From positions 1,441,921-1,505,920 of the forward strand of contig NC_008942.1 of NCBI RefSeq assembly GCF_000015765.1: a stretch of 64,000 nt of DNA. The letters run 5' to 3'. Shown piece after piece: positions 31,019 to 57,413 of this stretch. The notes beneath the pieces are model-generated. The model had not been told where the DNA came from and did not search any database. It worked only from the letters and a program-made list of their open reading frames with translations. The position numbers and the translations under genes are program-made. The DNA is from Methanocorpusculum labreanum Z (lineage in GTDB: Archaea; Halobacteriota; Methanomicrobia; Methanomicrobiales; Methanocorpusculaceae). Numbering within the stretch: the stretch's first letter is position 1; each line of letters starts with the position of its first letter.

Positions 31019-31261
31019 GGATGCGTAAAGTATGTTTGTCAGGATAGGATATGAATATCTGTGTCCGAACGATCATTTGTTAATAAACTTGGCTTACATT
31101 TTATCACAGGAGTGTGCCATAGTCATAAAGAAGTAAATCATGATCCAGATAGAAAGTATTACTCAAAATAATCGATTCAAGCATTCCGATTCCGTCTTGA
31201 TACAACGTAAAATAGGAAATATCAAACGCGATACAATGCTAAAAACAGAAAAATATATTCA

Positions 31262-31286
31262 AAGAAAAAAACGGGGGGATCCCGTT
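31262..31286 (-). terminator. Hairpin-T terminator of the tuf-rpsJ unit
   Basis: On the minus strand, directly after the rpsJ stop, AACGGG pairs with CCCGTT (plus positions 31270-31275 and 31281-31286), followed by a run of seven T and then CTTTG. The short GC-rich stem plus T tract looks like an efficient terminator for the elongation factor/S10 transcript. Confidence 0.6.
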
Positions 31287-31594
31287 CAGTTCTCTAAAAC
31301 GATCTCGATGCTGATATCTTTTGGAACCTGGATTCGCATAAGCTGCCTGAGTGCACGTTCATCGGCGTCAAGGTCGATGAGGCGTTTGTGCACACGCATC
31401 TGCCAGCGATCCCACGTTGCCGTACCTTCTCCATCAGGGGACTTCCGGATTGGGACGATAAGTCTCTTGGTCGGCAGGGGGATAGGTCCAGCCATATTTA
31501 CACCGGTACGTTCTGCAATCTCACGGATACGGGTACATACCGTCTCCACTTTCTCATAATCAGTCCCTGTCAGGCGTATTCTGGCTTTTTGCAT
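31286..31594 (-). CDS. rpsJ: 30S ribosomal protein S10 (uS10)
   Basis: A 102-residue small-subunit ribosomal protein. [56 protein letters not shown] and the C-terminal [16 protein letters not shown] match archaeal S10 throughout. A good ribosome binding site (GGTGAC) lies about 7 nt before the ATG. It follows tuf by 39 bp on the same strand, the usual archaeal arrangement. Confidence 0.97.
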
Positions 31595-31633
31595 TTTCTA
31601 AGTCACCACAAAAAATTCGAGTGAGCGATGAGA

Positions 31634-32911
31634 TTATCTCATCTGCTTTGCTTTAACGCTCAGAACAAGACCTGCTGCAACGGTCATACCCATATCACGG
31701 ACAGCGAATCTGCCGAGCTGCGGGAGTTCCTTTGCAGTCTCAATGACGAGCGGGCGGGTCGGAGTGATGGTACAGATTGCTGCATCGCCGGCCTTGAGGA
31801 ATGCCGGGTTCTCTTCCTTAACCTGTCCGGAGCGTGGGTCCAGCTTCTTGTTAAGTTCGGTGAACATACATGCAGTCTGTGAGGTGTGGCAGTGGAACAC
31901 CGGGGTGTATCCTACGGAAAGGACGGACGGGTGCTGGAGAACGACGACCTGTGCGGTGAATTCCTCTGCAACGGTCGGCGGGTTCTCGATCGGACCACAG
32001 ACATCGCCGCGGCGAACATCGTTCTTTGCGATACCACGGACGTTGAAACCAACGTTGTCTCCCGGAAGTGCTTCGGGGAATTCTTCGTGGTGCATCTCAA
32101 TGGACTTAACTTCACCGGTAACGTTTGCCGGCATGAAGGAGATCTTCTGTCCTTTCTTGAGGATACCGGTCTCAACACGGCCTACTGGGACGGTTCCAAC
32201 ACCGGAGATGGTGTAGACATCCTGAATCGGGAGTCTGAGCGGCTTGTCGGTCGGCATGTCGGGCATCTTGAAGAGATCAAGTGCTGCAAGAAGTGTCGGG
32301 CCCTTGTACCAGGGGGTGTTTGCCGATGCTTCCTTAATGTTGTCACCGCAGAATGCGCTGATTGGGATGAAGGGGGTCTCGGCCGGTTTGAATCCAACGG
32401 ACATGATGAGCTTGGTCATCTTGTCTTTTGCTTCGTTGTACTTCTCTTCGGAGTAGTTGACTGCATCCATCTTGTTGATGGCGACGATGATCTGGTTGAT
32501 ACCAAGAGTCTTGGACAGGAAAACGTGTTCCTTGGTCTGTTCCATCGGGCCTTCGGTTCCGGATACGACAATGATTGCTGCATCAGCCTGGGATGCACCG
32601 GTGATCATGTTCTTAACGAAGTCACGGTGACCTGGACAGTCGACAACGGTAAAATTGTATTTCGGGGTTTCGAATTTCTTGTGAGCGATATCGATGGTAA
32701 TACCACGTTCACGCTCTTCCTTGAGGGAGTCCATTACCCAGGCGAACTCGAAAGTTGCTTTTCCTTTTGATTCTGCTTCTTTCTTGTATCCATCAAGAAT
32801 GTGCTGCTGTACGACACCGGTCTCGAAGAGAATCCGGCCAACGGTTGTTGACTTACCGTGGTCAATGTGACCGATAACGGCAAGATTCATGTGGGGCTTT
32901 GCTGCTGCCAT
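31634..32911 (-). CDS. tuf: Translation elongation factor EF-1 alpha
   Basis: A 425-residue GTPase that delivers aminoacyl-tRNA to the ribosome. G1 GHIDHGKST at 14-22, G3 [10 protein letters not shown]4 NKMD and the switch region [11 protein letters not shown] are all present, with the two C-terminal beta-barrel domains. Heads a transcript with rpsJ; a strong TATA box lies about 90 bp upstream of the start codon. Confidence 0.97.
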
Positions 32912-32994
32912 GATAATGTATCTCCACTTTGACTCATTGATCGGATGTACAAAAGAGTATGATCCAAATCAACACGAGTGTAAACAGATAGGTC

Positions 32995-33015
32995 TTACAA
33001 CCATATAAAATAATT
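32995..33015 (-). promoter_or_regulatory. Promoter of tuf-rpsJ
   Basis: Read on the minus strand, GAATTATTTTATATGGTTG holds a canonical archaeal TATA box (TTTTATATGG, plus positions 33001-33010) preceded by a purine-rich stretch as a possible BRE. Initiation about 25 bp downstream would give a leader of some 65-70 nt for this highly expressed gene. The divergent small gene at 33075 may share the region. Confidence 0.5.
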
Positions 33016-33074
33016 CCTCGGGCAAACGAACAGAACCGACAGACTAATAGGAAAATAATCCCGTATTCTCTGTA

Positions 33075-33383
33075 ATGAAATCATTACCTCTTGAGAGAAA
33101 ACCGAGCGGTAAATCGACCGTGATGTGCGGGGATAAGGAAGTTTCCGTACACAGTACCTGTGTTTTTTGCGCGAACTGCGCGGGAATACGGGTAAACCGG
33201 AGAGTTACCCCGAATCCATACGCCCAGGCAATGCGCGGGTCAAAGGGAGGATTATCCCTCGATGAACAGTTAATGGAAGGAATGACCCTTTTCAACACCG
33301 TGATCGAAGACAAGAATGCCACCGATATCGAGTGTTCGGATGACGCAGGGTCCGGATACCAGCCGCTCTCACGCAGACGTTAG
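33075..33383 (+). CDS. Small cysteine-motif protein of unknown function
   Basis: A 102-residue soluble protein with a probable metal-binding knuckle: C18, then C29-x2-C32-x2-C35 in STCVFCANCAG. The C-terminus is basic (PLSRRR). The family was not recognised. Coding is supported by sensible composition and by its position in an otherwise empty gap between divergent tuf and convergent cobS; its last 15 bp overlap the 3' end of cobS. Possibly a small RNA- or DNA-binding protein, but that is only suggested by the cysteine knuckle. Confidence 0.65.
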   Translation: MKSLPLERKPSGKSTVMCGDKEVSVHSTCVFCANCAGIRVNRRVTPNPYAQAMRGSKGGLSLDEQLMEGMTLFNTVIEDKNATDIECSDDAGSGYQPLSRRR

Positions 33384-34109
33384 TATTACCGCTACGACCA
33401 GAAGAACGGCCATCCGGGTGATTTCGTTGCCCGCACCGGTCACATCCCCGTTCGTTCCGCCGAAGAGTTTTCGCGCGAGGAAATGGAGGCACAGGAATGT
33501 GACAAGAGCCGCAGCGAGTCCTGCCCCGACATACATTTTTCCAGGCAAAAGGAAGAGCGGGAGAGTTAAGAGTACGGCATAGAGGCAGAACCGCTTTTTT
33601 GAACGATCGTAGATATATTTCTGAATCCCGTCGTGAAATGGTTTTCCAAGCGCTGATGAGAAAGCCATACTCAGTTTCCCAAAAATTTCTGCTATGAACA
33701 CGGCGAAAGCGATTTGCAGGACGGTCATGGATGAGAGAGCGGCGTAGGAAATCAGAACAACCATGATTCCAAGAGCGAGTGCCCCGGCACCTGTCGTTCG
33801 GTCGGTCATGGCACGTATCCGTTTTTCCCTGCTTCCATGCGCCATGAGTCCGTCGCCGAAGTCGAGAAGTCCGTCGAAGTGGTTGCCGCCGGAAATGAAG
33901 ACCGCCAAGGCAAGGGTGAGGGCGGCGATTATCGAAGAGTTTTCAAATCCGAGATACCAGGCGATCAGCCCGGGAAGTGCCGCGATACCGCCGGTGACGT
34001 ATCCTGCTATCGGATAGAGCCAGCTTCGCTTCGCAAAACATTCATAATCCGCCGGTTTCCCCAGAGGGAGGATCGTGGTGAACTGTAAGAGTGCGCGAAG
34101 TGACTGCAT
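33369..34109 (-). CDS. cobS: Adenosylcobinamide-GDP ribazoletransferase (cobalamin synthase)
   Basis: A 246-residue polytopic membrane enzyme joining the nucleotide loop to adenosylcobinamide-GDP in the last steps of cobamide synthesis. The metal-binding motif GGNHFDGLLDFGDGLMAHG is at about 74-92 and AMTDRTTGAGALALG follows, as in all CobS proteins; five to six hydrophobic segments surround them. It is divergent from cobT with a 38-bp gap. Cobamides are essential for methanogen methyltransferases. Confidence 0.95.
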   Translation of the reverse strand: MQSLRALLQFTTILPLGKPADYECFAKRSWLYPIAGYVTGGIAALPGLIAWYLGFENSSIIAALTLALAVFISGGNHFDGLLDFGDGLMAHGSREKRIRAMTDRTTGAGALALGIMVVLISYAALSSMTVLQIAFAVFIAEIFGKLSMAFSSALGKPFHDGIQKYIYDRSKKRFCLYAVLLTLPLFLLPGKMYVGAGLAAALVTFLCLHFLARKLFGGTNGDVTGAGNEITRMAVLLVVAVILTSA

Positions 34110-34111
34110 TT

Positions 34112-34146
34112 ATATTATATCTTGTCAGTCCTAAATGATATAATAT
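34112..34146. promoter_or_regulatory. Symmetrical divergent cobS/cobT promoter
   Basis: The 38 bp between the two start codons contain a perfect 10-bp inverted repeat: ATATTATATC at 34112-34121 and GATATAATAT at 34137-34146. Each arm is TATA-like and lies 27-37 bp upstream of the start codon of the gene on its far side, the distance for a leaderless archaeal transcript. The two promoters would therefore interlock, each TATA box sitting at the other gene's start. The same repeat could instead be an operator. Confidence 0.55.
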
Positions 34147-34147
34147 C

Positions 34148-35158
34148 ATGTCATTTGTTTCAACGAGAGCGGATTTCTCTGCAGAGTCTCCGATGTTCGC
34201 CCTGATTCTGTCAAACTCCCTCGTCTCCACAATAGAGGGAGTATCCGGAGCTGGGGAAAGCCCGGCAAAAAGTCTGATGGTCCCCCCGTTAGACGCCGAA
34301 CTTATTATAAACGGCGAGATAACCTCCGTTGACATGACACCAAACACGCCGACCGGCTGCCCGACGCCGGCGGTCCTGACTCTCGCGATGATGGATCTTA
34401 TCGGCATGAAACCTCTCATGATCGCGGCTGGTCTGGATCATGAGGTCACTGTCCCCCATATACAGTTCGGTGAAAAAGCCGGAGGCGACCCTCGGGAAGG
34501 AAGGGCCGTTCCCAATGCGAAGGAACTTTTTGAAAAAGGCAGATGGCTCGGGGAGTATCTCTCCCAGACCCACGACCTCCTTGTTCTCGGTGAGTGTCTT
34601 CCGGGCGGGACGACGACCGCACTCTGTGTTCTTCGCGCTCTTGGCTACCAGGCAAAGGTCAGCAGCTGCCTCGTGGATAACCCGGTCTGTATCAAAGAGA
34701 AAATCGCAGCCGAAGCAGTGAAAAAAGTACAGAAAGCTGGCGTGACCGATCCGCTCGAGATCGTTTCGATGGTCGGGGACCCCATGATCCCGGTCGCCGC
34801 AGGAATCGCCGAAGGATATCGGGGGAAACTGTTCCTTGCTGGAGGCACGCAGATGCTTGCAGCCGCTGCAGTGATTCGGGCACTTGGAAACACAGTTCCT
34901 GATATTGTAACGACAGTATATGTCTACGATGACAAGACGGCCTCGTTCAAGGAAACGGCCGCCGCAGTCGGAGCAGATGCCTATTATGTGGATCCGGAAT
35001 TCGGATCGATCGGCCATGACGGCCTTGCCCGATACGCAGAAGGCGAGATCAAAGAGGGGTCGGGCGCCGGAGGAGCGATGTTTCTTGCAAGCATTCTCGG
35101 CTTCCCTCCCGAGGTTATCAGGAACACGATCCGCGAACAGGTCATCAGATACGCATAG
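34148..35158 (+). CDS. cobT: Nicotinate-nucleotide-dimethylbenzimidazole phosphoribosyltransferase, archaeal CobT
   Basis: A 336-residue enzyme of the archaeal CobT family (TIGR00303) that activates the lower-ligand base for cobamides. Characteristic segments are SVDMTPNTPTGCPTPAVLT, ECLPGGTTTALCVLRALG (phosphoribosyl binding), SMVGDPMIPVAAGIAEGY, and the C-terminal GEIKEGSGAGGAMFLA. It is followed directly (next base) by the cysteine-cluster gene. Divergent with cobS, forming a compact nucleotide-loop locus. Confidence 0.92.
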   Translation: MSFVSTRADFSAESPMFALILSNSLVSTIEGVSGAGESPAKSLMVPPLDAELIINGEITSVDMTPNTPTGCPTPAVLTLAMMDLIGMKPLMIAAGLDHEVTVPHIQFGEKAGGDPREGRAVPNAKELFEKGRWLGEYLSQTHDLLVLGECLPGGTTTALCVLRALGYQAKVSSCLVDNPVCIKEKIAAEAVKKVQKAGVTDPLEIVSMVGDPMIPVAAGIAEGYRGKLFLAGGTQMLAAAAVIRALGNTVPDIVTTVYVYDDKTASFKETAAAVGADAYYVDPEFGSIGHDGLARYAEGEIKEGSGAGGAMFLASILGFPPEVIRNTIREQVIRYA

Positions 35159-35677
35159 ATGGAACTGGAAATACAGATCCTCAACGCGGAATTCGCCTGC
35201 AGATGCTGCGGAGAATGCTGCAGCGGAAATGATAACGAGGTCATGGTCTCGCCCGATGAAATCGATCTGCTCTGTGAAGCGACAAACCTTACCCTGGATC
35301 AGATCGCCGAGCCGTATCCGGAATGGATCAATGATCAGGGAGCGACCTTCACCTTCGGCCGCGTTTTACGGCGGGGAGAGGATGGAAACTGTATGTTTCT
35401 GAAAAACAACCGGTGCACCGTCTATGAACACCGACCGCATATCTGCCGGACCTATCCTTTCATGCTTGACGGGGACCGGCTACTCGTTTTTGAATGCTCG
35501 GGATGTAAATCAGGCGAGCCAACGCCGGACGCGGAATTGATCGCACGGGATCTCCTTGCCCGCCGCGAGGCGGAGGATAAGGAATTTCTTTTAACAAAAG
35601 AGCAGTACCAAAAGCATAGTATGGTTATGGGGTCAACAATCATCTTCGACAGCAGGGGAGCTCATCAGCACAAATAA
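35159..35677 (+). CDS. YkgJ-family cysteine-cluster protein
   Basis: A 172-residue protein with the CxxCxxCC-type metal motif (FACRCCGECCSGN, about 13-25) and downstream cysteines in GNCMFLKNNRCTVYEHRPHICRTYPF and ECSGCKSG, the pattern of the YkgJ/Fe-S-oxidoreductase-like cysteine cluster family. It may bind zinc or an iron-sulfur cluster; no reaction is assigned. Starts at the base after the cobT stop and ends 2 bp before the TraB gene, so all three are probably one transcript. Confidence 0.85.
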   Translation: MELEIQILNAEFACRCCGECCSGNDNEVMVSPDEIDLLCEATNLTLDQIAEPYPEWINDQGATFTFGRVLRRGEDGNCMFLKNNRCTVYEHRPHICRTYPFMLDGDRLLVFECSGCKSGEPTPDAELIARDLLARREAEDKEFLLTKEQYQKHSMVMGSTIIFDSRGAHQHK

Positions 35678-35679
35678 CA

Positions 35680-36951
35680 ATGACGGAAATACACATCGTT
35701 GGAACAGCCCATGTTTCACAAAAAAGCATCGATGAAGTCCATGAAGTCGTGGACGCAGTGAACCCCGATGTGATCGCGATAGAACTTGACCCCGGGCGTT
35801 TTGCCGCATTGAAACAGCAGATGAAGGAGGCAGAGGATCGGGAAAATGGGATTCTGCCAAAAGAAGAAGGCAAAACAGAAGCCCCCGAGGTGAAGAGTCT
35901 CTTAAAGGGAAACTTTACTCTGATGCTCGTTCAGTGGATCCTCGCCTATGTTCAGCGAAAAGTCGGTATGAACGTCGGTGTCGAGCCGGGAGCCGAGATG
36001 AAAGAGGCGATAAAAATCGCCGAAGAGAGAAATATCAGGATACTTCTCATCGACCGGAACATCAACATAACCCTCGCCAGGTTCTGGGGAAACATGAAAT
36101 TCCTCGAGAAGATAAAACTCGTCTGGGTCCTTATCCGTTCGATGGTCGGAACGGATGACGAAACAGAGAGTATCGACACCGAAATGGTCGAGTCTCTGAC
36201 AAATCCCGACATGATCGAACTTGCCCTTGCCGAGTTCCAGAAGTTTTCCCCAACCGGCGCAAATGCGCTGATCACGGAAAGGGATGCCTATCTTGCTCAC
36301 GGCATCATCAATCTGGAGCACAGTTCGTTCGAACGGGCAGTGGTCGTGGTAGGTGCCGGACACCTTCCGGGAATCAGCAAATTCCGGGAACATCCTGAAA
36401 CACTGCCCTCCATGAAAAACCTGAATGAAATGCCGAAAAAATATCCGTGGGGGAAGATCATCGGCAGTGTATTCATTGCGATGTTTGCGGTTATTATTCT
36501 CGCGATCGCCTTTTCCGGGGCAACCGATCTTCTTATCTGGGCGATCATCTACTGGGTGGTTCTGAACGGACTGTTCGCCGGCATTGCGACATTACTTGTG
36601 AGAGGCCACCCGCTTTCCGCGGCGACCGCTGCGGGACTCGCGTGGATGACTTCGTTAAACCCGTTCCTTGCCTGCGGATGGTTTGCGGCGATCGTGGAGG
36701 CCAGAATGCGGCCGCCGACGGCAGGCGACTTCAAGGCGATCGCAAAAGCCGAATCGATTCACGATATGTTTTCGGTTCCGCTGTTTAAGATCCTCCTTGT
36801 CGCAGCGGCAGCAAATATCGGCAGCACGATCGCAACATTTGCCTTCTTTATCTTCCTGACCCCGCTCTTAGGGGTGGACCTTGATATGATGAAGGATATT
36901 CTAATAACCGGATTTGCCAATCTCTGGTCGTTTTTGACCGGCTGGATCTAA
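35680..36951 (+). CDS. TraB family membrane protein
   Basis: A 423-residue protein with an N-terminal TraB/GumN domain (EIHIVGTAHVSQKS at 3-16, PDVIAIELDPGRFAAL, and VVVVGAGHLPGI near 225) and a C-terminal membrane domain of about five helices from residue 260. The family shares a fold with erythromycin esterase/ChaN proteins; plasmid TraB inhibits pheromone. The archaeal function is unknown. Part of the cobT transcript by spacing. Confidence 0.87.
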   Translation: MTEIHIVGTAHVSQKSIDEVHEVVDAVNPDVIAIELDPGRFAALKQQMKEAEDRENGILPKEEGKTEAPEVKSLLKGNFTLMLVQWILAYVQRKVGMNVGVEPGAEMKEAIKIAEERNIRILLIDRNINITLARFWGNMKFLEKIKLVWVLIRSMVGTDDETESIDTEMVESLTNPDMIELALAEFQKFSPTGANALITERDAYLAHGIINLEHSSFERAVVVVGAGHLPGISKFREHPETLPSMKNLNEMPKKYPWGKIIGSVFIAMFAVIILAIAFSGATDLLIWAIIYWVVLNGLFAGIATLLVRGHPLSAATAAGLAWMTSLNPFLACGWFAAIVEARMRPPTAGDFKAIAKAESIHDMFSVPLFKILLVAAAANIGSTIATFAFFIFLTPLLGVDLDMMKDILITGFANLWSFLTGWI

Positions 36952-36974
36952 AATCTGTTTTATTTTTCAAAAAA

Positions 36975-37817
36975 TTATTTTTCCCACCAGATGTGGGCGG
37001 TCTTTGACGTTCCGGGGAGGATATATCCCTTATCGGTTTTGAGGAGGCGCTGATCCAAATACTGATCCACGATACGTTTCTGGTCATCGGTGTTTGCCAG
37101 AAGACGGGTATAATAGTCCTGCCGCATCTCTGCAGCAGACGTGTATGCCTGCCCGGTATTTCGTGATTCTACGGTAAGATTTGCATAGATCCCCAGCTGA
37201 CACAACACATTCCAGAGAATATCGGCAGTTGGTTCGTAGTTGTACGGTTCACCGTGCAGCATCGGCCAAAGATCGCTGTTTCCCCGCGAAAGTGAGGGAG
37301 GGAGGAGGAACCAGAAGAGATGGACCGCAGATTCTGCACAGTCATCCATTTTTTTCATGCAGGAACCAATGTCAGCCATCATGAGTGAGAGGGAAGCGAT
37401 CACCACATCATGTTTGCCTATCTCATCAGGCGAAGCCTCTTCCCATGTCTTTTGGATAGTTCGAATTGGCGGAGCGTTCGTGAGTGAACGATATGCTTCC
37501 ATCCCCCGGATCATGGGGGAGGAAGGCTCGACAACGGTCACAGAACAACCCGATGCCGCAAGCGGCACAGAAAGTGTACCTGGTCCTGCCCCGACATCGA
37601 GAACCGAAGATCCAGGCAGGATATTCATAGAGTCAAGCTGCTTTTTGACTCTTCCCCGGTCATCATTCTGCAGTCTTCTGACATACCTCTCCACATTGAC
37701 CGGATTGTCCCAGAAACTTCCGTTGTCTTCACCCGCCTTTCTCTTCTGTTCGAACGCACGTGCGATCTGTTCATCCCACATCCGGATAAAATCCGGTTTT
37801 TCGGCACACATATACAA
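36975..37817 (-). CDS. Class I SAM-dependent methyltransferase
   Basis: A 280-residue enzyme. SAM-binding motif I is VLDVGAGPGTLSVPLAASG (about 74-92), with motif II VTVVEPSSPMI and VVIASLSLMMADI as the later core strand. An N-terminal helical extension (FIRMWDEQIARAFEQKRKAGEDNGSFWDN) is shared with a group of methanogen methyltransferases found near cobamide or methyltransferase genes, but the substrate is unknown. Converges with the TraB gene. Confidence 0.85.
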   Translation of the reverse strand: MYMCAEKPDFIRMWDEQIARAFEQKRKAGEDNGSFWDNPVNVERYVRRLQNDDRGRVKKQLDSMNILPGSSVLDVGAGPGTLSVPLAASGCSVTVVEPSSPMIRGMEAYRSLTNAPPIRTIQKTWEEASPDEIGKHDVVIASLSLMMADIGSCMKKMDDCAESAVHLFWFLLPPSLSRGNSDLWPMLHGEPYNYEPTADILWNVLCQLGIYANLTVESRNTGQAYTSAAEMRQDYYTRLLANTDDQKRIVDQYLDQRLLKTDKGYILPGTSKTAHIWWEK

Positions 37818-37893
37818 TAATGTCAGGCGGACGGTAATAAACTGTGCGGACCTGAGAGAAAGACTATTTTACCTGTCAGACATAAGGTTAATC

Positions 37894-38424
37894 ATGAATA
37901 CCAGAAATCCGGGTATTGCAAACTTCGGTGTGACGATCATTCAGTCAAGACACAGTGTCCGAAAATTTAAAGACGCTGAGATCCCGCAGGAGTTCATTAG
38001 AAAAGCACTCGAGTGTGCCTCTAAAGCGCCGACTGCACGAAATATCCAGCCGTGGATTTTTGTTGTAGTGAAGAACAAAGAGACCCTGGCAAAGATTGCC
38101 GGTCTCGCACCAAATGGAAAATTCATCGAGGGAGCTGCAGTTGGATTCCTCGTATTCGGGAAAGCCGACTGGCAGTATGTTATCGAAGACTGCTCGGCAG
38201 CAACCGAAAACCTGCTTCTGGCCCTCCATGCCTATGGATACGGCGGATGCTGGATAGCCGGCGACAAAAAAGAGTACGCGGAGGATGTGCGTAAACTCGT
38301 CAATGTCCCGGAAGAATTCAAGCTTGTTTCAATCGTAGCAGCCGGCGTTCCGGATGTGGGCGGCATCACGCTCGCAGAAAAGCTGCCGCTGGACAGGCTG
38401 GTCTTCGAAGAGAAATACCAGTAA
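37894..38424 (+). CDS. Nitroreductase family flavoprotein
   Basis: A 176-residue FMN-dependent oxidoreductase of the nitroreductase fold. The N-terminal SRHSVRKFKDAEIP contains the FMN-phosphate arginines, APTARNIQPWIFVVV is the second flavin contact, and GGCWIAGDKK lies near the C-terminus. ATG 37894 was chosen because it begins the family's normal N-terminus; the frame is open upstream but there runs antisense through the methyltransferase gene. Physiological substrate unknown. Confidence 0.9.
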   Translation: MNTRNPGIANFGVTIIQSRHSVRKFKDAEIPQEFIRKALECASKAPTARNIQPWIFVVVKNKETLAKIAGLAPNGKFIEGAAVGFLVFGKADWQYVIEDCSAATENLLLALHAYGYGGCWIAGDKKEYAEDVRKLVNVPEEFKLVSIVAAGVPDVGGITLAEKLPLDRLVFEEKYQ

Positions 38425-38489
38425 TTCGTGGAAATATCCACAAAACCAATTTTTGAGCTGAAGAAAACGCCGGATCTTATGCAGAAGAT

Positions 38490-39437
38490 ATGCTGATTTT
38501 TCATCATCTATTTCTCGGTCTGGCCGCAGGAATAATCCTCGCCGTGCTTCTTTCGAATAAATGGGCCGTGCTTTACGCAGGGGTCGGAGCGATTATACCG
38601 GATCTTCTAGACAAACCGCTAGGACAGATCCTTCTTTCCGACAGTATAAACTATGGACGGATCTATGCCCATACACTGACATTGGCAGTGATTTTGATCA
38701 TCATCGGACTGCTGATCTGGTACAAATACCGGAAAAATATCCTGCTTCTCTGCATAGGAGCGGGCGTTCTTATCCATCAGCTCGGAGATGTCATGTGGGA
38801 AACACCCGTAAACTGGTTCTGGCCGTTTCTCGGACCTTTCCCGCCGTCATCAGAGGTCTATCCTCCGATACCCGATGGGTATCTTCCCTATCTGTATCTC
38901 GCATCATGGATACTGGCAGTGATCGCAGGAACGGCAGTGATAGTCGTTTTATACCGTTATCTGGGTCAGTATCTCGCCAAGGGGAAGATGGTTAAACGGA
39001 TCCTGACAGGAACGGGGATGATTCTGATGGGAGCCGGAACCATACTTCTCGTAAAATATCTCATCTGGGATCTGTTTCTTACCGGGCCATGGGCGAATTA
39101 TTTTGGGACCATGTATCTTCACGAGCTCTTATCGATTTCAGAATGGATCTACGGTCTTTCATCCCTGATGCTGATTCTGCTGATTCTGGATTATCCGGTA
39201 CGCTTTTCAGAAACGACAAAAAAACGGATCATCAGCATCTGCGGGGCAGGAATCCTGACCGTATCTCTGCTTCTTTTGCTGTTTATCGGCCTTGGATTTC
39301 CCGTGGATGAGGTGTACGGCGAGAATATGTGGAGACTGGCGGCAGTAGCCGGATTATTTTTTGGAGGGATCGTTTTCCTTTTTCTTGGAAACAGGATCTG
39401 GGAACTGCCGGATGACAGAATCCATACCAAAAAATGA
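38490..39437 (+). CDS. Polytopic membrane protein, metal-dependent hydrolase-like
   Basis: A 315-residue protein with about eight membrane segments. LIFHHLFLGLAAG, AGVGAIIPDLLDKPLG and the histidine-rich VLIHQLGDVMWETP resemble the metal-binding positions of the YdjM/DUF457 group but with a longer C-terminal membrane region. No function known. Monocistronic; 84 bp before the phosphatase gene. Confidence 0.7.
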   Translation: MLIFHHLFLGLAAGIILAVLLSNKWAVLYAGVGAIIPDLLDKPLGQILLSDSINYGRIYAHTLTLAVILIIIGLLIWYKYRKNILLLCIGAGVLIHQLGDVMWETPVNWFWPFLGPFPPSSEVYPPIPDGYLPYLYLASWILAVIAGTAVIVVLYRYLGQYLAKGKMVKRILTGTGMILMGAGTILLVKYLIWDLFLTGPWANYFGTMYLHELLSISEWIYGLSSLMLILLILDYPVRFSETTKKRIISICGAGILTVSLLLLLFIGLGFPVDEVYGENMWRLAAVAGLFFGGIVFLFLGNRIWELPDDRIHTKK

Positions 39438-39521
39438 CGAGTCCTCTGATGGATTTTTCTCTAAAAATATGGAGGTAAAATATTATGTGTTAACCATACC
39501 TATTGTATATTCTGATAGCGT

Positions 39522-40973
39522 ATGAATGATTTCCTCCTGAACTGGGTAAGCTCCATGTGCATGATTGCCCTCGTCTGGATTTTTTGTGCGGTCATGGTGA
39601 ATCTGACCCTGACACGAAAATACTCCGGTCTGCACACAGCATTACTCTGGATTGGAGGATTCCTGACGCTGGTCGTTCTCACCTCTTTTGTGGATGTTGT
39701 CTACGAGGCGTGTGTCTTTCTTATACCAAGCGGATATGATTTTATTTCTTTACTTGCCGACTGTCTGTTTGTGACCGTCGTCGGTGTCTGGTTTGTTTTT
39801 GTATCCTGGAAGATGTACCGGGGAACCTCATCTTCCAAGCTCTTTATAGCATCTTATATTCTTTTTATCGGCTTAAGCATCTGTGACCTTTCTTTTAGCA
39901 TCATTCACATGATGTTCCCATGGGATCTCTATCAGCTGAAGTTTGCAGCCTGCATTCTGATTTTGATCGCTCTGACCATTGGTCTGATGCTGGTGAGTCG
40001 TTTCCAGATCAAAACAATCCAGGAAACAAACAGAGACCTGCAGGGGGATTTTCGAGATGTTCTCTTCATTCCTATCGCGGTCTATCTGGCCTATGCCGTA
40101 CTATCCTGTCTGTGGAATAGTCAGGAAGGAACCGTATTTTTCATTCCGGAGATCACCACCAGAATCATTTTCATCATCATGGTTATCCTGCTCTATATGC
40201 AGGTTTTTTACGGGATACATAAGGCCATCAAGCAGATCCATATCGATGAAGAGATGCGCCTTGCAAAGGATGTACAGTCCAGCATACTTCCGGATCCGGA
40301 TTTATTCGAAAACATCACCGGTGTAACAATACACGCAGCCATCTCTGAATCAGAACTGGTCGGCGGAGACTTCTATGATATTATCAGAATCGGGGACTAT
40401 CATCTTGCGATTGTCATCGCCGATGTATCGGGCAAGGGGATTTCCGCAGCACTCATGATGATGCGTGTCAAAACCATGATCAAAATATCAGTGCGGACAT
40501 TATTCACGCAGCCCGGCAGAATGCTGACGATCGTTAATCGAGAAATCATGAAAAATAATGACGCATGCAGGTTCGTCACGGTTTTTCTCGGGATACTCAA
40601 CATAAAAAGTGGTCGTTTTACCTACGCATGTGCCGGACACAATCCGCCGATACTTTGCAGAGCAGGAATCTGCACCCTGGTTGTATGCGAGAAAGCACCC
40701 GGACTTGGAATCATGGACCACGAATATATCGATCAGCGAACTGTTCTGAAGCGAAATGATACGCTATGTATGTACACCGACGGAGTAACGGAGGCGCAAA
40801 ACAAACATGGCGAAATGTATGGAGTGTACCGGCTCCTTTCGATCGTTGAAAAATCAGACGATCCAAAAACTATGATTAATTCAGTAATCGATGATGTAAA
40901 CGTTTTCACCGGGAACCGTGGACAGACGGACGATATGACGATGCTCGCTGTCAGATACACCCAAGAAGAATAA
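39522..40973 (+). CDS. Membrane-anchored PP2C phosphatase of the SpoIIE/RsbU type
   Basis: A 483-residue protein. The first 230 or so residues form seven or so membrane helices; a linker (MRLAKDVQSSILPDP) typical of RsbU follows, then a PP2C-type domain from about 260 to 483. Mn-binding aspartates are visible in GGDFYDI, IADVSGKG and GQTDDMTML. Such phosphatases dephosphorylate STAS antagonists to release partner-switch signalling. A STAS protein and an RsbW-like kinase lie immediately downstream on the opposite strand, so the three probably act together, with the membrane part as sensor. Confidence 0.9.
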   Translation: MNDFLLNWVSSMCMIALVWIFCAVMVNLTLTRKYSGLHTALLWIGGFLTLVVLTSFVDVVYEACVFLIPSGYDFISLLADCLFVTVVGVWFVFVSWKMYRGTSSSKLFIASYILFIGLSICDLSFSIIHMMFPWDLYQLKFAACILILIALTIGLMLVSRFQIKTIQETNRDLQGDFRDVLFIPIAVYLAYAVLSCLWNSQEGTVFFIPEITTRIIFIIMVILLYMQVFYGIHKAIKQIHIDEEMRLAKDVQSSILPDPDLFENITGVTIHAAISESELVGGDFYDIIRIGDYHLAIVIADVSGKGISAALMMMRVKTMIKISVRTLFTQPGRMLTIVNREIMKNNDACRFVTVFLGILNIKSGRFTYACAGHNPPILCRAGICTLVVCEKAPGLGIMDHEYIDQRTVLKRNDTLCMYTDGVTEAQNKHGEMYGVYRLLSIVEKSDDPKTMINSVIDDVNVFTGNRGQTDDMTMLAVRYTQEE

Positions 40974-41011
40974 AGATGGGAATGAAATCCCAAAACACAG
41001 TTTTTTTCTCT

Positions 41012-41335
41012 TTACTCTTTTACCAGAAGATCGTCAAACCCCGAGATCTCAAAAACTTCGCGGACCAGACCGCGTGCGTTGATTATCTGCAGGGTCCCTT
41101 TCGGACCAAGCTTCTTTTTCAAGGTCAGGATGATCGAAAGACCAACGCTGGACATGTAGGTGAGTTTTGCAAAATTGAGCGTAATGGTAGTTATCCCGTC
41201 AAGGGACGACTCTGCGCACCTCCGAAACTCAGGAGCGTTTCGGGCATCCAGTTTCCCATCCAGCTCAAGGATCAGGTTGGATTCATTAACAGTTTTTATG
41301 ATTTTCATAGATGTAGTTCCCCCATTTTTAGACAC
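41012..41335 (-). CDS. STAS-domain antagonist (RsbV/SpoIIAA-like)
   Basis: A 107-residue single STAS domain: LILELDGKLDARNAPEFR, ITTITLNFAKLTYMSSVGLSIIL and NARGLVREVFEISGFDDLL. The SS pair before VGL is at the site phosphorylated by RsbW-type kinases. GTG 41335 overlaps the stop of the upstream kinase gene (TAGTG), favouring translational coupling; ATG 41308 would give a protein closer to usual family length. Expected to bind the kinase in its dephosphorylated form. Confidence 0.9.
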   Translation of the reverse strand: MSKNGGTTSMKIIKTVNESNLILELDGKLDARNAPEFRRCAESSLDGITTITLNFAKLTYMSSVGLSIILTLKKKLGPKGTLQIINARGLVREVFEISGFDDLLVKE

Positions 41336-43743
41336 TAAGAGTAGATTTTTTTGTATACAGTCAGAACATTCGTCCCGTTCACACGTTCATACGTGATTCT
41401 GTCGGTCAGTTTTCTGGACAGGAAAATACCCCAGCCGCCGACGTTTCGGTCATCGATCGGCAGCGTAACATCCGGCTCTGCATACTCAAGCGGGTTAAAC
41501 GGCACCCCCAGATCAGTAATGATCAGTTTCAGGCAAGGGCCGATATGCATCATAAAGGTCACTGAACCGGTTTCATTCGGGTAGGCATAATTGACGATGT
41601 TGACAAACAATTCTTCGATCACCAGCGTCATCTTTGAGATGAAGGGTTCGGCAACACCGTTTGGACGAAGAGCAGTATCCACCCATTCGACGATTTGCTC
41701 CAGACTTTCGACCGTTGCCGGGATGATGAGCCGCGCAAAATGCCTCGGATAGAGGTGAACATACTTCTGATCGGTATACGGGCAGGGTTCGGCACCACCC
41801 ATGGATTTACCACAGGTGACAATCGTATCTTTTTCACCGAGCGTCGTGGCATCTTCCAGAGAGAGAGCGGCTTTTTTACCATAGGCGGTAAGATTGCACC
41901 CCGTGAATGAAAGACGCTTTACGGCAATCCCGTAGATAGCCCCTTCGGCATCAAGACCGGAATTCGCGACCGTTACAGTACTTTGTTCGCCTTTCACCCC
42001 GTACATGCCGCCAACAATATCCAGATGAGTCCCGGAAACGATAAGATCGCCGCTTCCAAGACATATACCAGAGGAATTTTCTTCGATGTCGGTTGCTCTG
42101 ATCTGAAGAGATCCCCCTTTTGCATAGATCGAACCCGAGGTGATCAGTATCCCGTAGATATCTGCAGAAATGTCATGCATGCCGCTGTGGATCTGAATGT
42201 CGCCGCTGCAGGAGAAAATGCCTGCGTAACGACCTGAAATCTGAACCGCTCCGCCGGAAATGTTGACGGTATTCCCGGCATACAATGCAACATCCCCGGC
42301 AATATCAACGACGGCATCATTAAAACTGGCGGCACCGTTGGAAACGTACAGACCAAATTCATCACCAAAGACGGTAAGATACCCCCCGAGATCTTCGATG
42401 GATCCGTCTATCTTCAGCCCGGTCTTTCCAGAAGCGGTCAGCAGGCCCGACGTAAGCCTGAGATCATCATGAACATAAAGACCGGTCGTATAGCCGGTTG
42501 CCTCGATCTTCCCGCCGTACACAGTCATTTTTTTTGCGACGCATATTCCATCCCCGGCCATACCGGTGCCGCAGATCATGCCGGAGTTTTGGATATATGT
42601 CCCTTTGACATCGATCCCGGTGCCTTCATTGATCGATGTGAGGGTTCCGTTCGAAACCTCGAGATTTCCGTTAACGACAAGGCCGGTTCGACCACGTATC
42701 TCCAGACTCCTGCCGGAAAAGTGCATATCTGTTCCGACACGAACGCCGATCTCTTTTCCGCTGATGACGGAAACGGAACTGTCTTCCAAACAAAAGCCCG
42801 CACCGATCAAGATCCCGGTGATTTCTCCTTCGACCGTGACATTCATCTGCGTAAATACAGCGTCATGTGAAAAGGATAATGCCGAATTGCCAAAAACCGC
42901 ACAACTCCCATCAAAGAGACGGCAGATTTCCCCTTCAACGAGAATCCCGGCATCCTCACCGTTGATGAAGAGATGAAGATCCGTTCCGATAAGGGATCCA
43001 CCAACTGAAATGCCGGTTCCGGCACCGATCTCTGCGGTGACAGAAGAGAGATGAAGATCTCCCTTTTCAGAGATGATCCCGATTTTTCGGGAAGCTGCCC
43101 GCAGGAAACAGTTTTTGAGGGTACATGAACCATCACGCACATGTATCCCCATTCCGTCCGGCGCCTCAATGAGATGAGTGCCCCCATCCAGTTCGAGGCC
43201 GCCAAAACACTCTATACCCGTGCCGGCCGCAATAATCTTTAGAGAAGATGTATCCGCAGTTATGCCGGCACCGGATCTGATACCGGTATCTTTAGAGAGT
43301 ATACTGATGGTCGAGCCGGAGATCGCGATGCCTTTTTTGGCATGGATCCCGCAGGCCACCCCGGTGATGCCCACATATACCGACGTTATAGATAATGTTC
43401 CAAAATCAACACATATGCCGGTTTCACTTTCGGAAAGGATAAGCGATCCTTCACCCGAAATAGTCAGACCACCATTTCGCACACGTATCCCCGGACGATG
43501 TTTCCCAATGATGGTATTTTCTGCACCCGAGGCAATGATAGAGATATCCCCATAACAGTCGATCCCGGATCCATGATATGAATTCAGTGAAAGAACACGA
43601 GACCCCGCATCCCAGTTCCAGCCGTTCCCGTAACAATTCTCTTCAGAATTGTAGATTTTCCCGTTCATGACAAGTTGGGTATCGGAATAGATTTGCGGGG
43701 TCATATCCTCAAGTACGATGTATAGTTTGTTTTTAATATTCAT
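41335..43743 (-). CDS. Beta-helix protein fused to an RsbW-type serine kinase domain
   Basis: An 802-residue fusion. Residues about 20-640 are a long series of short repeats alternating IS/IT-G-GSL strands with turns such as GIRSGAG and GICVDFG, consistent with a right-handed beta-solenoid; the opening GNGWNWDAGSRVLSLNSY resembles carbohydrate-binding repeat domains of anaerobe surface proteins. Residues 667-802 are a GHKL ATPase of the RsbW/SpoIIAB type: N-box EELFVNIVNYAY, G1 DLGVPFNP, G2 NVGGWGIFL. No signal peptide is seen, so it should be cytoplasmic. Upstream of and overlapping the STAS gene. Confidence 0.85.
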   Translation of the reverse strand: MNIKNKLYIVLEDMTPQIYSDTQLVMNGKIYNSEENCYGNGWNWDAGSRVLSLNSYHGSGIDCYGDISIIASGAENTIIGKHRPGIRVRNGGLTISGEGSLILSESETGICVDFGTLSITSVYVGITGVACGIHAKKGIAISGSTISILSKDTGIRSGAGITADTSSLKIIAAGTGIECFGGLELDGGTHLIEAPDGMGIHVRDGSCTLKNCFLRAASRKIGIISEKGDLHLSSVTAEIGAGTGISVGGSLIGTDLHLFINGEDAGILVEGEICRLFDGSCAVFGNSALSFSHDAVFTQMNVTVEGEITGILIGAGFCLEDSSVSVISGKEIGVRVGTDMHFSGRSLEIRGRTGLVVNGNLEVSNGTLTSINEGTGIDVKGTYIQNSGMICGTGMAGDGICVAKKMTVYGGKIEATGYTTGLYVHDDLRLTSGLLTASGKTGLKIDGSIEDLGGYLTVFGDEFGLYVSNGAASFNDAVVDIAGDVALYAGNTVNISGGAVQISGRYAGIFSCSGDIQIHSGMHDISADIYGILITSGSIYAKGGSLQIRATDIEENSSGICLGSGDLIVSGTHLDIVGGMYGVKGEQSTVTVANSGLDAEGAIYGIAVKRLSFTGCNLTAYGKKAALSLEDATTLGEKDTIVTCGKSMGGAEPCPYTDQKYVHLYPRHFARLIIPATVESLEQIVEWVDTALRPNGVAEPFISKMTLVIEELFVNIVNYAYPNETGSVTFMMHIGPCLKLIITDLGVPFNPLEYAEPDVTLPIDDRNVGGWGIFLSRKLTDRITYERVNGTNVLTVYKKIYS

Positions 43744-44043
43744 AACAGTATGTCAGGGACATTTTTTGTTCAATTAACATGAGTTGTCAGACTATTTTTG
43801 GAAGATTCTGAAGAGACGAGATACATATCCATGACGAGCAAAACGCGCCGGAAAGACGCAGCCCGGCATCGGAGCAGTGAACCTAAATTATCCTATTTTT
43901 CATCCAAAAACGCTAATTAATAATAAAGTATAAATATAACATAATTTTTTAAAAAAGAATATTTTAAATATAATAACATATATATTACCTATTGTCTCTG
44001 AACTCAGGACTCAGGGGCTTAATGACACTGGGATGTATGAAAA
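43744..44043. other. AT-rich intergenic region, no gene
   Basis: No convincing gene. A GC-richer patch (43833-43880) contains GCGCCGGAAAGACGCAGCC and may fold. From 43910 to 43995 the sequence is almost entirely A/T with several TATA-like stretches (TATAAATATAAC, ATATATATTACC), then CTGAACTCAGGACTCAGG, a short direct repeat, before the small gene at 44044. It probably carries promoters for genes on both sides. Confidence 0.5.
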
Positions 44044-44274
44044 ATGACAAATGTAATCGCCGAACTAAAGCGGACAAGTTTTACCAGGGAAAATCATATC
44101 CCTTATCACTATCCGGAACGCCCGACGTGTAATGCCGACACGGCAGAGCTCTACGAGGGAGGGTGTGAGATACCTGTGGCGTCACTACTTTCAAAATTAT
44201 TAACAGTACAAGAATCGTGTTCTCCCGAAACTTCCAATGCACGGTGTTTCCTTCTTGAAAAAAGATACCGTTAA
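44044..44274 (+). CDS. Small hypothetical protein (uncertain)
   Basis: A possible 76-residue soluble protein with four cysteines spread along it. It follows the strongest TATA-like stretch of the preceding intergenic region and ends before a small hairpin (GTGAC CCT GTCAC at 44300-44312) with a T run that could be its terminator. No family recognised and no clear Shine-Dalgarno sequence. It could be a chance open frame in an RNA-producing region. Confidence 0.35.
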   Translation: MTNVIAELKRTSFTRENHIPYHYPERPTCNADTAELYEGGCEIPVASLLSKLLTVQESCSPETSNARCFLLEKRYR

Positions 44275-44299
44275 ATAGGAAAATTCTGCTGTAATACCT

Positions 44300-44334
44300 G
44301 TGACCCTGTCACATTTCTTCCTCCTTTTTTAAAA
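44300..44334 (+). terminator. Candidate hairpin plus T-run terminator
   Basis: GTGAC and GTCAC form a 5-bp stem around CCT at 44300-44312, followed by a pyrimidine-rich stretch ending in six T. The position fits termination after the small open frame at 44044-44274 and before the HPS-RraA gene. Confidence 0.35.
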
Positions 44335-44359
44335 TGATGATTCGATAAAACAGAACCCT

Positions 44360-44404
44360 CTCAGGATATGACGGGAATTCTGCGCCGCTGAAACCTCAGG
44401 ATAT
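44360..44404 (+). promoter_or_regulatory. Direct repeat upstream of the HPS-RraA gene
   Basis: CTCAGGATAT occurs twice, at 44360-44369 and 44395-44404, 35 bp apart and 51-95 bp before the ATG. Spacing near three and a half helical turns and exact identity suggest a possible operator, but no regulator is identified. Confidence 0.3.
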
Positions 44405-44454
44405 CTTTTACTCACCCACCAGCCTTATCCCCTTCTCCTTCCAAACTATTCTCC

Positions 44455-45738
44455 ATGCAAAGCCCTATCCTCCAGGTGGCCCTTGACGTAACCGAGCTTA
44501 CCCGGGCCCAAAAAATAGCAGAAGAGGCATTGGCAGGCGGTGCCGACTGGATAGAAATAGGCACCCCCCTGGTAAAAAGCGAAGGAATGCAGGCAGTTCG
44601 CGCCCTTAGGGCGCAGTTTCCGACCACAACACTCGTCGCCGACCTGAAAACAGCCGATACCGGCGGCATGGAAGTCGAGATGGCAGCAAAGGCCGGAGCA
44701 AATATCGTCTGCGTCCTTGCAAATACGGATAACGCGGTCATCATCGACGCCCTTCGCGGGGCATCCCTTTACGGAGTGCAGATCATGGCAGACATGATGA
44801 ATGTCGAGGACGTGGTTACACGTGCGAAAGAGCTCGCCGACCTTGGAGTCCAGATCATCAATGCCCATGTAGGTATCGACCAGCAGATGGAGGGGAAAGA
44901 TCCGCTGGATATTCTGGATAAACTCGGGGATCTTCCGCTCGAAATAGCCGTAGCCGGCGGACTGAATGCAGAAACTGCATCCAAGGCTGCGGCAAGGGGA
45001 GCAGACATCGTGATCGTTGGCGGGTCGATCATCAAAGCAGCCGACGTCACCAAAGCTGCCCGAAATGTTCGGGATGCGATTGATCATCCTGCAGAAGGAA
45101 CGACCGTGAAAACCAGTCTGGATGACACGATCCGCGAACTTCTCGAACAGGTCTCGGCCCCGAACGTTACGGATGCCCTCTACCGAAAAGGAGCGATGAG
45201 CGGTCTTACCGTTCAGTATGTTCCAAAGAAGATGATCGGAAAAGCGGTCACCGTACAGACATTCGGCGGCGACTGGTCCAAACCGGTCCAGGCGATCGAT
45301 GAATGCATACCGGGAGATGTTCTCGTCATCAGCAATGACAAAAGAACCGACATAGCGCCGTGGGGCGAACTTGCCACGCGTTCGGCTGAGAACAAAGGGG
45401 TCGCGGGGATCATTATCGACGGGGCCGTACGTGACTGGGATGATATCGTCACGCTTGAAACTCCCGTCTATGCAACGGGTATCCAGCCAAATGCAGGCGA
45501 ACCCAAAGGATTCGGCGAGATCAACGCCGACATCTCCTGCTGCGGTCAAACCGTTCGGCCGGGAGACTGGCTGATCGGCGATCAGTCCGGTGTCGTCGTT
45601 ATTCCACGGGAACGGGCATACGAGGTCGCACGGCGTGCGGTCGAAGTCCAAAAAACCGAGGTCAGGATCCGTGAAGAGATTCGGAGAGGCGGGACGCTCG
45701 GCAGTCTCTCGCAGCTTCTCCGGTGGGAGAAAAAGTGA
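44455..45738 (+). CDS. Bifunctional 3-hexulose-6-phosphate synthase / RraA-like protein
   Basis: A 427-residue fusion. Residues 1-215 are an OMPDC-superfamily barrel of the HPS type, with D63-K65-D68 in ADLKTADTGGMEVE and ADMMNVED, INAHVGID and AVAGGLNAETA at the other strand ends. Residues about 225-415 are an RraA-like domain (APNVTDALYR, PGDVLVISND, GIIIDGAVRDWDDI, DWLIGDQSGVVVIP). In archaea HPS runs in reverse to supply ribulose-5-phosphate for nucleotide and aromatic synthesis, or fixes formaldehyde. The RraA half may be an aldolase-like enzyme. The stop overlaps the start of the TPR gene. Confidence 0.92.
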   Translation: MQSPILQVALDVTELTRAQKIAEEALAGGADWIEIGTPLVKSEGMQAVRALRAQFPTTTLVADLKTADTGGMEVEMAAKAGANIVCVLANTDNAVIIDALRGASLYGVQIMADMMNVEDVVTRAKELADLGVQIINAHVGIDQQMEGKDPLDILDKLGDLPLEIAVAGGLNAETASKAAARGADIVIVGGSIIKAADVTKAARNVRDAIDHPAEGTTVKTSLDDTIRELLEQVSAPNVTDALYRKGAMSGLTVQYVPKKMIGKAVTVQTFGGDWSKPVQAIDECIPGDVLVISNDKRTDIAPWGELATRSAENKGVAGIIIDGAVRDWDDIVTLETPVYATGIQPNAGEPKGFGEINADISCCGQTVRPGDWLIGDQSGVVVIPRERAYEVARRAVEVQKTEVRIREEIRRGGTLGSLSQLLRWEKK

Positions 45739-46526
45739 GCAGAAAACCTAGTGTCACTAACCCATCTGACCCGGTTCTTTGGTGTAAGGAAGCAGCCCAA
45801 CGGATGATCTCCGGCGATGAGAAAGGAGCCATATTCTGCTATCAGGAATCGGTCAAACTTCGGCCGGGTATTCCTGATGTCTGGTATAATCTTGCCCGGC
45901 TCTTTGAAAAGACCGGCGAAAGAAAAGAAGCACTGGCAACACACATCACGGCCGGAAAACTGTTTCCCGCAGATTACCGGTTTTCCGCAGAGCGTGCCAG
46001 ACTTCTTGCCGAATCCGGGAAATACACCGAGGCAGTGAATGCGGCATCTGATGCTTTAGCGAGTGCCCCATACTCCCCGACCCTCTTAGCAAACAAAGCA
46101 GGTTACCTCATCTTTGCAGGTAACCCAGACGAAGCCCGGCAGACGGCAGAACAGGCCCTCGCGATCGATCCGGGTTGTGCGCTTGCCTATCTGCACAAAG
46201 CTCACGCAGAATCCCTACTCGGGAATGCGGCAAAGGCGAAAGAAACCATGGAAACCGGGCTTTCATCAGTGCCGGATGACGGCCGCCTGCTGAAACTGCA
46301 GGCAAATCTCCTGATCAGAAGCGAAGATTTTGAAGCAGGTCTTGCATCAATAGAAAAAGTCCTTCTGCTCGATCCAAACGATGCCGAAAGCTGGAGCCTG
46401 AAAGGCGCGGCTTCTGCGTATCTTGGCCGGAAAGAAGATGCAATCTCTGCATTCGAGCAGGCAATGAAACTTGATCCAAAAGAGAAAGCCTACCGGCAGA
46501 ACCGCGATGCGGTGCGGAAAGGATAG
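45735..46526 (+). CDS. Tetratricopeptide-repeat protein
   Basis: A 263-residue soluble protein of about seven TPR units; examples are PDVWYNLARLFEKTGERKEA, ALAYLHKAHAESLLGNAAKA and AESWSLKGAASAYLGRKEDA. TPRs mediate protein-protein contact; no partner is known. GTG 45735 overlaps the HPS-RraA stop as GTGA and is preferred; an in-frame GTG at 45723 is an alternative. Transcribed with the HPS-RraA gene. The 3' end lies just before the inverted-repeat element at 46549. Confidence 0.85.
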   Translation: MSRKPSVTNPSDPVLWCKEAAQRMISGDEKGAIFCYQESVKLRPGIPDVWYNLARLFEKTGERKEALATHITAGKLFPADYRFSAERARLLAESGKYTEAVNAASDALASAPYSPTLLANKAGYLIFAGNPDEARQTAEQALAIDPGCALAYLHKAHAESLLGNAAKAKETMETGLSSVPDDGRLLKLQANLLIRSEDFEAGLASIEKVLLLDPNDAESWSLKGAASAYLGRKEDAISAFEQAMKLDPKEKAYRQNRDAVRKG

Positions 46527-46548
46527 AACCCTTCATTCTTTTTTTTAG

Positions 46549-47179
46549 TAGGATTTACGCGGTGTTCTCCTTAATCCAATTCAGGAAGGGTATTACTGGG
46601 TGTGGACACATGAGAAAAAACCAACCGCGAATCGGCGCGAACCGCAAAGCTTTGCTTTGCTCTCCGCTTCGGGTCTTCGCCCCTCGCTTGAATCCCGCAA
46701 GCCGTTGGCTTGCTCCCAAAATCGGATTTACTGTGCCTCACTTTCACAATCCAACTTCGCTGTCTTTCTCATCCCTCATCGGGAACGTTCGGGCAAATCC
46801 TGTCGGCGCCCCAGCGCCTCCTGAGGGAAATATTCAGGGAGTTTTTTTAATGAAAAAGAGGGGGAAAAATTACTATCGGGAGCCGCTGGGGCGGCGACAG
46901 GATTTGCCCGAACGTTCCCGATAAAGGGACGAGCCGTTGGGTCGAGCGGGTTGGCGACGAAGTCGACGACCTTAGCGGAGCAAGGCTTTGCCTTGCGACT
47001 AGACCCAACGAGCGAGAGTGAGGATCAGCAAATCCGATTCGCCTCGCCCGAAGGGCGGATTCGCGCCGATTCGCGGTTGATTTTTCTCTTGTGTCAAAAC
47101 GAATACCGTACACGAAATCGAAGTACATCTCATAAGAACTATTGTTTTTTCCGGTTAAGATCGCATCGCGTAAGTCCTA
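46549..47179. mobile_element. 631-bp imperfect giant inverted repeat, non-coding element
   Basis: Almost the entire segment is an inverted repeat about its centre. Ends: TAGGATTTACGCGGTG at 46549 against the complement of GCGTAAGTCCTA ending 47179. Next arms: 46605-46645 with 47056-47096 (both containing CAACCGCGAATCGGCGCGAA). Inner arms: 46778-46821 with 46879-46922, about 44 bp with few mismatches and a 57-bp loop. It encodes no recognisable protein; short open frames in it are by-products of the symmetry. It looks like a MITE-type element or a source of a long structured RNA. Related sequence occurs at 57085-57120, 57511-57660 and 61585-61667. No target duplication could be identified with certainty. 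Confidence 0.72.
46644..46713. repeat. Two members of the GCAARNC hairpin family
   Basis: Perfect 7-bp stems with 3-nt loops: GCAAAGC-TTT-GCTTTGC at 46644-46660 and GCAAGCC-GTT-GGCTTGC at 46697-46713. A further member, GCAAGGC-TTT-GCCTTGC, lies at 46980-46996 in the other arm of the element. Flanks (CTCCGCTTCGGGTCTTCG) match those of copies near 57.6 and 61.5 kb. Confidence 0.75.
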
Positions 47180-55965: not shown

Positions 55966-56289
55966 CAGACATGAACTGGTCATGTATGGAATCTATCTCA
56001 TATTTCCAAAATGAGAGAGATACAATAACTATAGTTACTCATTTCTTCACAAAAATTAAGGTTAACTCTTTATGATAAGGGGATGAAAATCTTGACAAAA
56101 AAAAGGCATTTTCCTAATCAATTTGAAACCACATCACAATCTGAAACAGAGGCAAATATGTTCATAGGATTTAACTATCTGATGAGAAGACAATTATTTT
56201 TCGGACACATATCCTGATCAAAAAGAAATACACTCCCTTGTGAAGAAGATGCAGCATGTCAGGAAGAGATATCTTGCTTCAGCGAGTGC
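55966..56289. other. Intergenic AT-rich stretch, nothing recognised
   Basis: No open frame of note and no clear motif. The low GC content and the pilin remnant immediately downstream suggest decayed sequence. A TATA-like element is not obvious. Confidence 0.4.
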
Positions 56290-56403
56290 GACCATCATAA
56301 AAATCCGTCATTCAATGTGTCATCATACTCCGAAGTGCCGTTCCCATTGAATGGTGCTGAGATCGCCGCGGTCTATGCTGCCGAGATGGAAAATCCGCGG
56401 TAA
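56290..56403 (+). pseudogene. C-terminal remnant of a LamG-type pilin-like adhesin
   Basis: A short frame ends VPFPLNGAEIAAVYAAEMENPR at TAA 56401. It matches the ends of the two large adhesins in this window (VDFPLTSEEITAIHTLESGGY and IPFALTSAEIATVYDDEKSAYGW). The upstream part of the gene is missing, so this is a relic of a duplicated or replaced copy. Confidence 0.7.
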
Positions 56404-57314: not shown

Positions 57315-57413
57315 TGGAAAAACGGGAGATTTTTTTATGCGGGGTGTGGGGCCGCGACTCCGGCGTTGAGGCGGGGTGGCGAACAAGTGAGGGCTGTAGA
57401 CCCGAGTAGGAGA

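Follow-up and report, generated by a model that had tools for sequence, protein, structure and literature searches.

The locus analysed here lies in a 64,000-nucleotide stretch of DNA from Methanocorpusculum labreanum Z, referred to below as the window. It comprises a gene for a membrane SpoIIE/RsbU-type PPM phosphatase (39522..40973, + strand), a gene for a STAS protein of the anti-anti-sigma type (41012..41308, - strand), a gene in which a beta-solenoid is fused to an RsbW-type kinase (41335..43743, - strand) and, divergent from the fusion gene, a small conserved open reading frame (ORF) encoding 76 amino acids (44044..44274, + strand). That is, a kinase, a STAS protein with a target serine and a PPM phosphatase, by which a partner switch is recognized, are encoded together, and domain searches find HATPase_c_2, STAS and SpoIIE only once each in the M. 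labreanum Z genome. The three larger products are those of Mlab_1450-1452, a trio already noted in 2009 in a passage of PMC2686161, which also names the Memar_2467-2469 set and describes the 'anti-sigma' sets of Methanomicrobiales as having no known target. In that passage the solenoid, its relatives, the small ORF and the loss of the genes as a unit are all unmentioned; among the papers that were text-searched, no other contains the Mlab_1450-1452 locus tags. New relative to the 2009 note are the spread of the fusion and its single clade, the unfused relatives, the co-occurrence of the fusion with STAS and the small ORF, and the absence of the whole unit from the close relative G031 (surveyed genomes carry G numbers, M. 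labreanum Z being G000).

As listed, the fusion gene encodes 802 amino acids, and no internal stop interrupts the 802 codons of 41335-43743 on the minus strand. Its true start is probably the ATG at 43704, giving 789 amino acids, because the frame opened by the upstream ATG runs into a TAA in G017 and G018. The protein was modeled with AlphaFold2 as a monomer from an alignment of 19 relatives, a run that is uninformative on control between the domains; the model has a mean pLDDT of 88.5 and comprises an unbroken beta-solenoid at about residues 23-630, followed by a GHKL fold at 661-799. The solenoid (41854..43677, - strand) is delineated by the strands of the model, in which ten-residue blocks mostly have a pLDDT of 83-98, by glycines spaced about 22-23 residues apart, by Cthe_2159 repeats scoring 41.4 bits in Pfam against a cut-off of 25.8, and by the selection on its codons described below. 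It begins with a cap motif, GxGWxW...R.L.L..Y.G. A reading of this locus from the sequence alone had put the repeats at about 640 residues; the solenoid itself is confidently predicted, but it spans about 610 residues, with further end strands to about residue 666.

The C-terminal kinase domain (residues 661-802; 41338..41763, - strand) is of the RsbW/SpoIIAB type. Pfam assigns residues 674-798 to HATPase_c_2 (E 6e-19), and Foldseek aligns the domain with SpoIIAB (1l0o, target TM 0.74) and RsbW (6m37, target TM 0.84). The N box (E..N), G1 (DxGxxF) and G2 (GGxG), which the sequence-only reading had picked out, are invariant when aligned with free archaeal RsbWs, and they align with RsbW/SpoIIAB proteins of known structure, including B. 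subtilis RsbW. The GHKL fold, the three boxes and the catalytic Glu and Asn of the N box are all present, so that the kinase site is predicted to be intact. The RsbW equivalog model PRK04069, however, scores only 25.5 bits of the 145 needed, and by the NCBI standard the fused domain is classed from its sequence as a divergent relative, not an RsbW ortholog.

The STAS protein, of 98 amino acids from its conserved ATG, matches the STAS family at E 1e-15 and TIGR00377 above cut-off. Its predicted phosphorylated serine, Ser63 in the 107-aa frame and Ser54 in the 98-aa numbering, aligns with SpoIIAA Ser58 (Ala in 1tid). The gene had been described as overlapping the fusion gene, an arrangement that depends on a GTG start. 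In relatives the STAS protein begins at an ATG equivalent to 41308, except in G018, where it begins three codons further upstream; an overlap is therefore improbable, and the two genes are likely to lie up to about 26 nt apart. The phosphatase, by contrast, is placed as had been stated: it is convergent with the STAS gene at a distance of 38 bp, and coordinates and Pfam (SpoIIE, 157.6 bits) agree. About seven transmembrane segments precede its phosphatase domain, which carries the conserved PPM motifs GGDF, DVSGKG, TDG and DDMT.

Of 25 Methanocorpusculum genomes, five carry the fusion; three of the four besides M. labreanum are its close kin, so that the phyletic counts are non-independent. 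Among the 33 genomes of the family that were searched, the fused proteins of G028, G017, G018 and G026 are 82 %, 81 %, 58 % and about 35 % identical to that of the window. No solenoid-RsbW fusion was found outside the genus among 232 genomes of the order or 393 drawn from the phylum; long RsbW-containing frames elsewhere (e.g. in G498, G333 and G447) match over the ATPase only. Several of the surveyed genomes are incomplete MAGs, and the informative points are the distant G026, which has the fusion, and the close G031, from which all of it is missing. Comparison with the three closest relatives (G028, G017 and G018) gives a dN/dS of 0.10-0.16 in the ATPase and of 0.16-0.23 in the solenoid, where it varies little from one end to the other. 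Because the fusion recurs in four more genomes, and with low dN/dS in these three, errors of sequencing or assembly do not account for it; a stop or frameshift between solenoid and ATPase was looked for, and the frame is open in all five genomes. Misassembly and frameshift are ruled out by this open frame and by the purifying selection. From the frame, Pfam, the structural model and these relatives, we conclude that M. labreanum Z does encode an RsbW-type kinase fused to a long, rod-shaped, cytosolic-looking solenoid, the fusion being as the sequence-only reading had proposed.

In a tree of the ATPase, the five fused domains form one clade (support 100/100), which 2.0 substitutions per site separate from the free RsbWs; so long a branch suggests changed constraints. 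The solenoid tree does not settle the monophyly of the fused proteins, since G026 and G032 lie on long branches (AU p 0.32); the question of a single origin is therefore decided by the ATPase tree, which indicates that the fusion arose once and was then conserved.

The solenoid is also found without the kinase. About 15 of the 232 genomes of the order, across Methanomicrobiales, encode an ATPase-less relative of 860-880 residues, and these unfused proteins terminate where the ATPase begins in the fused ones. Judged from these alignments, the solenoid protein predates the fusion, and the ATPase was joined to its native C-terminus. The unfused relatives and the fused protein of G026 open with a module of four invariant cysteines followed by a TPR-like helical stretch; in G026 it matches DUF2225 (PF09986) above cut-off, so that this module, solenoid and ATPase occur there together, whereas it is missing from the window protein and from the three proteins nearest to it. 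In three papers that name DUF2225, no function for the family was found. The module also exists stand-alone: four loci (L097, L098, L099 and L101, in G003, G052, G079 and G045) encode lone DUF2225-like four-cysteine/TPR proteins of about 220 amino acids, and at three of the four an ABC-2 type permease-like gene, judged by eye, lies adjacent. At six loci with an unfused solenoid gene, in several genera (L021, L023, L024, L048, L049 and L054), the adjoining gene encodes a protein that crosses the membrane several times and that, in G032, weakly resembles DUF308. The unfused solenoid occurs without a detected SpoIIE in G032 and G049 and also without STAS in G032. Thus the solenoid protein serves some purpose independently of this switch, which is the added part.

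The sequence-only reading had likened the solenoid to extracellular carbohydrate-binding repeats while finding no signal peptide. The likeness extends only to the repeat type, which is that of Cthe_2159 (PF14262; structures 4peu and 4phb), the Pfam repeat being named after a carbohydrate-binding protein; of the family traits, however, repeats above the Pfam cut-off are present and secretion is not indicated. The 4peu chain has 313 residues; the window solenoid is about double that length and apparently intracellular. A secreted Cthe_2159-like protein encoded in the same genome provides a comparison: the N-terminus here is not hydrophobic (maximum 0.72, versus 2.63 in the secreted protein), and there are 17 cysteines in 636 residues, versus 4 in 654. 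Because of the missing signal peptide, the cysteine content and the DUF2225-like Zn/TPR module of the relatives, the family looks cytosolic. No close structural match for the solenoid was found (phmmer E 0.16), and Foldseek gave only weak matches, mostly to extracellular or phage tail proteins. These matches and the name of the repeat are what speak for a contrary view, in which the solenoid would be exported, as an adhesin or to bind carbohydrate, and the fusion would be due to misassembly or belong to a dead gene. Against it stand the frame that is open in five genomes, a dN/dS well below 1, and the evidence on location just given, and we regard this view as barely credible; for an exported adhesin in particular, composition, the missing signal sequence and the DUF2225 module of the relatives lead us to reject it. 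A viral origin of the solenoid was also considered and rejected, there being no BFVD match at E <= 0.001, as was a role in anti-phage defence, there being no PADLOC match for any protein of the locus.

The small ORF, which the sequence-only reading had missed, is a candidate fourth component of the same gained-or-lost block. Its dN/dS of 0.15-0.27, with changes mostly at third positions, indicates purifying selection. The protein opens with MTNVIAExKR, closes with RCFLLEKRYR and matches no known domain. Among the 33 genomes of the family, the ORF is present only in the five with the fusion, including the distant G026, and is missing from those with the solenoid alone or a free RsbW alone. It is intact in four of the five (81 residues in G026, where it lies on a different contig from the fusion). 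In G018, where all three genes of the trio are intact, frameshifts and a stop have broken it; the 76-aa protein is therefore not indispensable. Pairs of Zn-ribbon genes of similar look occur on the small-ORF contig of G026 (L120, G026:C207) and beside the unfused solenoid in G032 (L024), a weak hint of a shared neighbourhood.

Within the genus, STAS is found in 5 of 5 fusion genomes and 0 of 20 others (Fisher p 2e-5, kinship ignored), and SpoIIE in 5 of 5 and, over cut-off, in 1 of 20 others (Fisher p 1e-4, kinship again ignored). G026 encodes additional membrane phosphatases of the SpoIIE type, including a tandem pair, and one more STAS gene that stands alone (L107, L108 and L110). The phosphatase, STAS, fusion and small-ORF genes lie in a block of about 5 kb (39438..44401) that is absent as one unit from G031, where only about 103 bp separate the YdjM and hps genes. 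The flanks are kept in G031, with 90.5 % identity over 31240-39417 and 87 % over 44402-46641, and no repeat longer than 6 bp, as a sign of a mobile element, was found at the borders. In a midpoint-rooted tree of nearby genes, G031 groups with G000, G028 and G017, and G018 ends the longest branch. Because G031 groups with carriers of the block, and because the block of G018 lies at the same side of hps as in the window, loss in G031 is the simpler reading. By this distribution, the switch genes are present or absent together as one unit.

Elsewhere in the window, about 2.4 kb at 55966-58340 have low coding capacity, and parts of 56300-61460 match several sites in the G031 genome and may belong to a multi-copy element. 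A 1574-aa protein with DUF4011, AAA helicase, MTES_1575 nuclease and DUF3320 is encoded at 24628-29352 (- strand), in a stretch conserved in G031.

What might this switch control? In bacteria, kinases of this type restrain transcription factors, which in the classical systems are sigma factors. The locus shares with the Bacillus RsbW/SpoIIAB, RsbV/SpoIIAA and RsbU/SpoIIE systems the kinase fold and boxes, the target serine of the STAS protein and the PPM phosphatase, whose N-terminal region is in this case a membrane region. It differs in that a beta-solenoid of about 610 residues is attached to the kinase and that each domain has its sole genomic copy in this locus. According to the passage in PMC2686161, no bona fide sigma factor is known from archaea; a classical sigma factor is unlikely as the switched partner here, in line with what the sequence-only reading had argued. 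Bacterial partner switches with non-sigma outputs are known: SypE/SypA and BtrW/BtrV (PMC8256260) are kinase-STAS pairs of the kind proposed here, although they are bacterial, have other outputs and are not fused to a solenoid.

The reading we favor, at about even confidence, is that a complete partner switch was grafted onto a pre-existing cytosolic solenoid protein, the solenoid being its probable output in cis. Switch kinases of the model systems are dimers. By analogy with the biochemistry of SpoIIAB/SpoIIAA/SpoIIE and RsbW/V/U, the fused kinase would, while the signal is absent, phosphorylate the STAS protein and release it. With STAS gone, the kinase domains, if dimeric as in the model systems, would be free to keep the solenoids in one state. 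The membrane phosphatase would sense the signal and dephosphorylate STAS, consistent with the phosphatase control described in PMC11418112 and PMC12143880; dephosphorylated STAS would then bind the kinase domain, so altering how the solenoid is assembled or exposed or which partner it has. Given the short tether and the dimeric kinases of the model systems, the simplest output would be the state of the solenoid itself.

Among the points that weigh against an output in cis are two facts. The first is that free RsbW, STAS and SpoIIE systems are common in the order, so a separate partner is conceivable. On that basis, kinase, STAS and phosphatase could cycle on an unlinked archaeal transcription or signalling protein, presumably as in the unfused systems of Methanomicrobiales, with the solenoid as a passive tether; non-sigma outputs such as SypA and BtrV would provide precedents. 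Yet a passive tether would hardly seem to require about 610 solenoid residues under even purifying selection, and we consider this reading improbable. The second is that the 76-aa ORF, which travels with the switch, offers a ready-made partner in trans. The kinase domain might sequester a separate protein, most obviously this one, which would be freed when STAS binds, the solenoid serving as anchor or scaffold. The selection on the ORF, its restriction to the five fusion genomes, its association with the switch and not with either part alone, and its absence from G031 in one block with the trio make this the strongest rival to an output in cis; its decay in G018, its separate contig in G026 and its lack of a known domain count against it, and we judge it rather unlikely. 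Overall, the proposal of the sequence-only reading that the solenoid may be the scaffold or output is the better supported of the candidates.

Taken together, these results lead us to suggest, tentatively, that an archaeal switch directly controls a cytosolic beta-solenoid effector instead of a transcription factor and that the 76-aa protein may be its dedicated partner. Such a switch would have arisen when the kinase was joined C-terminally to a DUF2225-solenoid protein, of which versions without a switch are found across Methanomicrobiales; this would also provide a pointer to the target of the 'anti-sigma' systems noted in 2009. The results also identify a family of large beta-solenoids, apparently intracellular, that consist of a repeat type known from secreted proteins. 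The RsbW/STAS/SpoIIE switches of Methanomicrobiales have lacked a known target ever since the first genomes, and two candidates, the solenoid and the 76-aa protein, can now be named. With a switch that is fused, single-copy and contained in a 5-kb unit, what an archaeal partner switch controls becomes a question testable with a few purified proteins.
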